Below, piece after piece: positions 19,672 to 20,633 of a stretch of DNA of 64,000 nt (positions are counted from its first letter, which is position 1; each line of letters starts with the position of its first letter). Origin of the DNA: Herminiimonas sp. GTDB taxonomy: Bacteria > Pseudomonadota > Gammaproteobacteria > Burkholderiales > Burkholderiaceae_D. The stretch covers positions 124,001 through 188,000 of the forward strand of contig DAIDBD010000007.1 of the NCBI GenBank assembly GCA_027310305.1, read 5' to 3'. The translations under genes and the position numbers were made by a program. Below the pieces are notes generated by a model. The model made no database searches. It was not told where the DNA came from and saw nothing but the letters and a program-made list of their open reading frames with translations.

Positions 19672-19935
19672 ATGAAAACCCAACTGAAACTGGCCTCGCT
19701 GGCCGCTCTGACCGCCGCCACCTTGGCCCTTCCCGCAGCGGCCCAGGACGCGGCGGCGCCGGTCAAGTGTGCGCCCGCCGCCATGGCGAAATGTGGTGCC
19801 AAGTGCGCACCGAAATGCCGTGCCAAGAAGCACCCGGTCAAGAAGGCCGCCAAGTGCGGGGCCAACAAGTGCGCCCCCAAATGTGCTCCCAAGTGCGCGC
19901 CGAAATGCGGCCCGAAGTGCGCACCGAAGAACTGA
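19672..19935 (+). CDS. Secreted Cys/Lys-repeat protein (KCAPKC repeats), candidate metal-binding protein
   Basis: Signal peptide MKTQLKLASLAALTAATLALPAAAQDA then VKCAPAAMAKCGAKCAPKCRAKKHPVKKAAKCGANKCAPKCAPKCAPKCGPKCAPKN; RBS AGGAG. Confidence 0.8.
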   Translation: MKTQLKLASLAALTAATLALPAAAQDAAAPVKCAPAAMAKCGAKCAPKCRAKKHPVKKAAKCGANKCAPKCAPKCAPKCGPKCAPKN

Positions 19936-19940
19936 CTTCC

Positions 19941-20633
19941 ATGAAGAAGGTGCCGCCACGCTCACCCCGGCCTGACGCCGCCTTGGCGGCGGTCGGGCTG
20001 CGCTTGCTGGAAACCTACGCGGGCCTGGCCGAGCGTGGCGAGCACCTGCTGGGCCGGTTGTTGGCTGGCCACGCTCCACGGCAGTGGGCGCACTACCCGG
20101 AAGACGATGCCATCGACCACATCAGCGGCTACCAGTGGTTCTATCACTCGCACAGCCCTGAGGATCGGCCGGGCGCGGTGGAGCACGGGCACATTCACCT
20201 GTTCGCCCGACAAGTCCTATGGAGTCGAAGGCTGTATTCAAGATCGGAACGGGCCTTCGCCGCGCTGTGCGGCAACCTGTCAACCACGCCGACAACACGA
20301 CACCTGCTCACCATCGGGCTCGATGCGAAGGGCTTGCCCATCTCGTTGTTCACGGTCAACAGTTGGGTGACGGGGGATTTGATGCTGGGAGCGGACTTGA
20401 CCTTGGAATTGCTCGCAGCCATGAAACTCGACACCGGGCACCCCGAGGTCGATGCCGTCATCGAGTCGGTCGTCCGGCTGTGCGCCCCGGAGTTGCAGGC
20501 GCTGATGCAACTCCGCGATGACGCCCTGCGCGCGCACCGTACCGCCGACAAGCTGCATGACGAAACGCTGGAGTTGCTCTCAGAAGTCCGCATCGACCTA
20601 GATGCGAAGCTCTCGGCCCTGTCGGCGGCTTAG
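19941..20633 (+). CDS. DUF6969-like protein
   Basis: MKKVPPRSPRPDAALAAVGLRLLETYAGLAERGEHLLGRLLAGHAPRQWAHYPEDDAID...QWFYHSHSPEDRPGAVEHGHIHLF; follows Cys-repeat gene by 5 nt. Confidence 0.65.
   Translation: MKKVPPRSPRPDAALAAVGLRLLETYAGLAERGEHLLGRLLAGHAPRQWAHYPEDDAIDHISGYQWFYHSHSPEDRPGAVEHGHIHLFARQVLWSRRLYSRSERAFAALCGNLSTTPTTRHLLTIGLDAKGLPISLFTVNSWVTGDLMLGADLTLELLAAMKLDTGHPEVDAVIESVVRLCAPELQALMQLRDDALRAHRTADKLHDETLELLSEVRIDLDAKLSALSAA

Follow-up and report, generated by a model that had tools for sequence, protein, structure and literature searches.

The window analysed here is a stretch of 64,000 nucleotides from Herminiimonas sp., and the genes and promoters considered are listed in Table 1. 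The original prediction placed in it a signal-bearing peptide of 87 residues with 10 Cys and KCxxKC repeats, a DUF6969-like gene just downstream, and genes for cytochrome c, thioredoxin, CcdA, a DUF2892/YgaP-like protein and an ECF sigma factor nearby. The ORF of the peptide is as described, and the named neighbours are all recovered by Pfam. The peptide gene and the next ORF are separated by 5 bp, and the product of the latter matches PF22308 with 178.6 bits (gathering cut-off 27, E 1.4e-52) over residues 20-218 and model positions 5-201 of 201.

Table 1. Genes and promoters of the module (positions in the window)
Feature	Position	Strand	Remarks
ECF sigma factor	17050..17580	-	Pfam; presumed reader of the three promoters
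DUF2892/YgaP-like small membrane protein	17584..17829	-	Pfam
Third promoter copy, before DUF2892/YgaP-like and ECF sigma genes	17841..17871	-	
CcdA/DsbD-type membrane thiol-electron transporter	17916..18644	-	Pfam
Exported thioredoxin-like protein (WCPTC)	18644..19036	-	
Exported c-type cytochrome, SoxA/TsdA domain (PF21342)	19075..19506	-	Homologues elsewhere fused to NPC repeats
Divergent promoter copy, before cytochrome c - thioredoxin - CcdA	19537..19567	-	
ECF-type promoter GCGAACCC-N-CCTCTTA, before peptide-DUF6969 pair	19595..19625	+	Starts 77 bp 5' of the peptide start codon
Exported Cys-repeat peptide	19672..19935	+	87 aa, 10 Cys, KC[AG]x repeats
DUF6969 protein (PF22308)	19941..20633	+	230 aa; apparently without signal peptide or TM segment

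Residues 1-24 of the peptide constitute a predicted Sec-type signal, and the mature part is about 6.3 kDa with a pI of about 9.8. The hydrophobic, Ala-rich N-terminus expected of such a signal is kept in 39 homologues, as judged by eye and by hydropathy. No family in Pfam or NCBIfam matches the peptide. It is nonetheless not a chance ORF, because homologues with conserved start, signal and repeats sit just 5' of DUF6969 in nearly all close relatives, and because the peptide locus is the only place in this genome with the KCxxKCxxKC DNA pattern (the genome-wide motif counts given for this genome are pattern searches).

In 118 DUF6969 sequences, H69, H71, E81, H121, N140, W142 and R192/D193 vary hardly or not at all, with H69, H71 and H121 strictly invariant. 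H84 and H86 are invariant wherever aligned, a figure that is inflated because the sequences were chosen by the EHGH motif. AlphaFold2 models were obtained for this protein (pLDDT 93.2, pTM 0.90) and for a member of a second subfamily (pLDDT 85.7, pTM 0.85). The models from the two subfamilies have no significant match among PDB folds (best E 1.9 and 0.37), one of them has no significant fold match in a viral structure library, and the DUF6969 profile finds no relative among PDB sequences at E up to 10. As modelled, the fold offers no enzymatic precedent. The HxH and EHGHxH motifs and His121 are a candidate metal site, in which the spatial clustering of the His residues is suggested by the strand pattern alone. 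No paper on DUF6969, PF22308 or the repeat strings was found in an open-access library that covers few subscription journals and preprints.

The peptide-DUF6969 pair had been predicted to share an ECF promoter with the cytochrome c, thioredoxin, CcdA and DUF2892 genes. An ECF-type motif, GCGAAYC-N15-19-CTCTTA, is found exactly three times in the 4.01-Mb genome, each time before one unit of the module; shuffled sequence would give about 0.01 copies per 64 kb, against the three in the window, and both the promoter and its sharing by these units are thereby borne out. No sigma-70-type (housekeeping) promoter was found between the divergent units. A looser form, GCGAA[C/T]C-N15-19-CTCT, lies upstream of 29 of the 39 KC peptides, usually 77 bp before the start codon. 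The ECF factor of the module presumably reads the three promoters, which define three transcription units predicted to be co-induced. The arrangement is as in an ECF sigma regulon, in which every unit of the module has the common predicted promoter and one of them contains the ECF gene. Since the third promoter ends 12 bp upstream of 17829, the true start of the DUF2892/YgaP-like gene is probably the internal ATG at 17793.

No anti-sigma gene is seen beside the ECF gene (17050-17829); the DUF2892/YgaP-like protein stands in its place and might be a sensor or anti-sigma factor. A small thioredoxin/glutaredoxin-like protein (CPAC) is encoded at 16764-17027 on the plus strand, convergent with the ECF gene and with no promoter copy before it. 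At locus L023 (4663), an AhpD-like gene of the carboxymuconolactone decarboxylase family that adjoins DUF6969 has the promoter motif at its start, which hints at oxidant stress.

To see how widely the pair is kept, as the original prediction had proposed for KCxxKC-repeat ORFs and DUF6969, loci were collected in a scan of one genome per species, which gave 69 DUF6969 loci (L002-L070, retrieved through DUF6969 only and not through the peptide). Where the upstream sequence is complete, almost all loci of the close group (L002-L055) have an exported KC-repeat homologue, usually 5-100 bp upstream of DUF6969 on the same strand. Each of the 15 loci of the distant group (L056-L070, about 32% identity) has a different exported repeat peptide, of the NPCAGNPCAG type, with a YeeE-like transporter gene on one side and a rhodanese gene on the other. 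DUF6969 is present in 20 of 399 genomes drawn by phylum (5%) and in 31 of 387 drawn by class (about 8%). At 38 of the 49 DUF6969 loci from the genome draws, a Cys-repeat gene, exported or lipid-anchored, was recognised by eye, and some of the remaining 11 lie at contig edges or have no more than about 1.4 kb of flanking sequence. At a few DUF6969 loci, such as L093, L104, L115, L122, L129 and L130, no Cys-repeat gene is seen close by.

A blind rule was also applied, requiring a signal-like start followed by four or more [PKGA]C[AGS] in a stretch of 60 residues. Up to 2 kb from DUF6969 (443 kb in total) it returned 94 ORFs, and in the 519 kb farther out at the same loci it returned none; in the 64-kb window it returned the reported peptide alone. 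Conversely, when 350 genomes of the same order were searched for the repeat, the matches reading KC[AG]x in this genome (G000) and in G953, G869, G799 and G973 lie at most a few hundred bases from DUF6969, the exception being G877, where the match is close to the contig start. The pair is therefore conserved, and the co-occurrence holds on the 94 versus 0 control and the 38 of 49 loci. That an ordinary low-complexity small ORF happens to sit beside an unrelated housekeeping DUF might be argued from the low-complexity sequence and its lack of a family model, but this enrichment, the conserved promoter distance and the conserved signal contradict it, and with the 94 versus 0 control the idea is rejected as having next to no probability. 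That the peptide and DUF6969 genes work together is well supported, and comparative genomics marks DUF6969 as the dedicated partner of exported Cys-repeat peptides.

The repeats beside DUF6969 are of at least six types and include KC[AG]x, NPCAG, NPCAAK, RGGNPCAPSA, SPCGL/SPCSL, CAAGC, CCGCCGC and CAAKKPC. A core motif of KCxP rather than EGKCG had been proposed. EGKCG is indeed absent from the peptide, but KCxP is just one of several cores, and [K/P]-C-[A/G/S] is the wider rule. Repeats are also fused to a SoxA/TsdA-type cytochrome c domain (L097, L100, L102, L103 and L132) and, at L094, to a cytochrome P460-like domain (weak match). In the former, the haem domain has NPC repeats at one end or at both, and these cytochromes are homologous to that of the window. 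Plasmids of Burkholderia glumae and B. thailandensis have KC-repeat peptides adjoining DUF6969 too, and on Burkholderia plasmids (L113 and L114) arsenosugar-biosynthesis genes, a methylthioadenosine phosphorylase, an ECF factor and a zf-HC2 protein (likely anti-sigma) are seen. The DNA of the module itself has no match in a plasmid collection.

The signal region of the peptide has a mean pairwise identity of 0.81-0.88. At the same loci, the thioredoxin signal reaches 0.39-0.46 and that of cytochrome c 0.34, even though the mature parts of these two proteins are conserved better than that of the peptide. Such a signal, much better conserved than the signals of exported proteins encoded nearby, is what may be expected of a recognition leader. 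Together with the dedicated partner gene, it is an indirect hint of a RiPP, a ribosomal peptide whose core is modified by an enzyme under the guidance of a leader. Preliminary work on bufferins indicates that the signal peptide takes part in recognition by the maturase (PMC12452194), and this parallel supports a leader role by analogy.

Some of the surroundings of the module suggest a link to metals. A mercury operon (merA, merD, merT, merP, merR and small mer genes) at 20650-24709 of the window directly adjoins it, and mercury operons lie within 5 kb of the module also in L034, L053 and L102. In two relatives, L014 and L030, the promoter motif is found also upstream of a true copper-bufferin operon, DUF2282-BufB-DUF2063-DoxX (DUF2282 68-72 bits, cut-off 22.4; BufB in L030 376 bits, cut-off 310). 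Because this promoter is common with true bufferins and mercury operons are close by, metal stress is the first condition to consider.

The predicted absence of a DUF692 (MNIO) partner is upheld, as none lies next door. An MNIO gene occurs in 8 of 93 compared loci, and the nearest one in this genome lies on the contig of the module, about 133 kb away (G000:C64:10019-10780, L092); it is of the standard bufferin type, shares its reading frame with a DUF2063-like part and is accompanied by a DoxX-like gene. MNIO as a required hidden partner was considered and rejected, since 17 of the 49 DUF6969 genomes have no MNIO and its presence in 32 of 49 is not above background (237 of 387).

Several known systems bear a likeness to the module. 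The bufferins (Buf1/DUF2282 and Buf2, with MNIO BufB and DUF2063 BufC) likewise consist of a small Sec-exported Cys peptide beside a dedicated cytosolic partner gene, with sigma-factor genes in some clusters and a metal-stress setting. In contrast, the present peptide is not DUF2282 or BufA by HMM (Pfam, NCBIfam), no MNIO or DUF2063 partner is next door, and DUF6969 has no detectable relation to MNIO in sequence or fold. The peptide is not a bufferin, because it fails both the precursor models and the MNIO requirement, but its system may still work like one. Thus, of the bufferin-like reading offered earlier, the metal role gains support from the shared promoter in L014 and L030, while membership in the family does not stand. 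The Buf_EGKCG/oxazolin proteins (HvfA) share repeated Lys-Cys-Gly-type motifs in an exported protein, whereas here KC[AG]x repeats recur about every four residues and no HvfB-type MNIO is adjacent. MrpX/BcrX are exported Met-rich peptides under ECF control, with the periplasmic reductase MsrPQ (PMC8315932). They resemble the present peptide as ECF-regulated, exported, low-complexity peptides of redox residues beside periplasmic reducing proteins (PMC8315932), but here the residues are Cys and Lys instead of Met, the reducing proteins are CcdA and thioredoxin instead of MsrPQ, and there is the dedicated DUF6969 partner in addition. CcdA, thioredoxin and a SoxA/TsdA-type cytochrome are together also in Sox systems (SoxV/SoxW, SoxA). 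The cytochrome of the window, however, scores 34.2 bits with the SoxA model TIGR04484, far under the cut-off of 110, and exceeds only that of the broader PF21342 (36.3 versus 27 bits), and no SoxXYZB is seen nearby.

We propose that the module is an ECF-controlled stress system in which DUF6969 is a cytosolic maturase or handler and the peptide a periplasmic thiol/metal buffer, and put the probability of this whole model at about 0.5. DUF6969 would bind the precursor in the cytosol before Sec export, partly through the unusually conserved signal sequence, and its putative metal centre (HxH/EHGHxH/His121) would modify the cysteines of the repeated [K/P]-C-[A/G/S], or load or protect them. The exported peptide would then buffer periplasmic thiols or soft metals (Cu, Hg or similar), with CcdA and thioredoxin keeping periplasmic thiols reduced. 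Such a system would be bufferin-like in action, though neither the peptide nor its partner would be related to those of bufferins. Indirect evidence makes it likely that the peptide is an envelope thiol or metal buffer. Of the possible mechanisms, covalent Cys modification by DUF6969 is the likeliest, with a probability somewhat below one half. More tentative is the proposal, which we consider quite conceivable but short of probable, that DUF6969 founds a new class of peptide-maturation metalloenzymes with a new fold, which would act independently of MNIO on the [K/P]-C-[A/G/S] repeats that exported peptides and cytochromes carry throughout Pseudomonadota, and modify them.

Some observations count against the proposed model: the fold has no enzymatic precedent, co-occurrence with MNIO by genome is at background, and a few DUF6969 loci show no Cys-repeat gene. 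In addition, several contexts point to sulfur chemistry instead, namely the SoxA/TsdA cytochrome, YeeE and rhodanese. The Cys repeats might hold sulfane sulfur or thiosulfate, which the SoxA/TsdA-like cytochrome oxidises while CcdA/thioredoxin (SoxV/SoxW-like), YeeE and rhodanese supply or reset the carrier. Such a role is suggested by the cytochrome in the module and its fusion elsewhere to NPC repeats, and by YeeE and rhodanese flanking the NPCAG group and L109-L111 (rhodanese also in L112); it is nevertheless rather improbable, as the cytochrome is so far under the SoxA cut-off, no SoxYZ-type carrier motif is seen, and the mercury and bufferin contexts are left unexplained. Alternatively, the unmodified peptide may be a sacrificial sink that mops up periplasmic oxidants (HOCl) or electrophiles and is regenerated by CcdA and thioredoxin, with DUF6969 as a chaperone keeping the precursor reduced for export. 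The promoters common to CcdA, thioredoxin and the peptide fit this role, as does the precedent of MrpX with MsrPQ (PMC8315932). We judge it unlikely, as the invariant His/Glu set of the cytosolic partner and the mer and bufferin linkage are not accounted for, and many DUF6969 loci have no CcdA/thioredoxin. The cytochrome, CcdA/thioredoxin, YeeE and rhodanese contexts keep both of these readings alive.

DUF6969 may also be a metallochaperone, its His cluster binding a metal and loading the precursor without covalent change. The His-rich invariant motif and the family-wide pairing agree with this role, but Sec exports unfolded chains, so that metal loading before export would be awkward, and its probability is low.

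The association gives DUF6969, a conserved family of unknown function, a testable role and ties it to exported Cys-repeat proteins, which form a large set that is so far unannotated. Should DUF6969 modify these peptides, it would represent new peptide-modification chemistry on a new fold, and, as a new metalloenzyme class, a second and unrelated way to bufferin-like periplasmic metal buffers. If it only protects or loads them, an entire class of thiol-rich envelope proteins would still have in DUF6969 a dedicated partner for export or metals. The presence of DUF6969 beside exported Cys-repeat proteins across many proteobacteria suggests an overlooked route to an envelope thiol/metal sponge.
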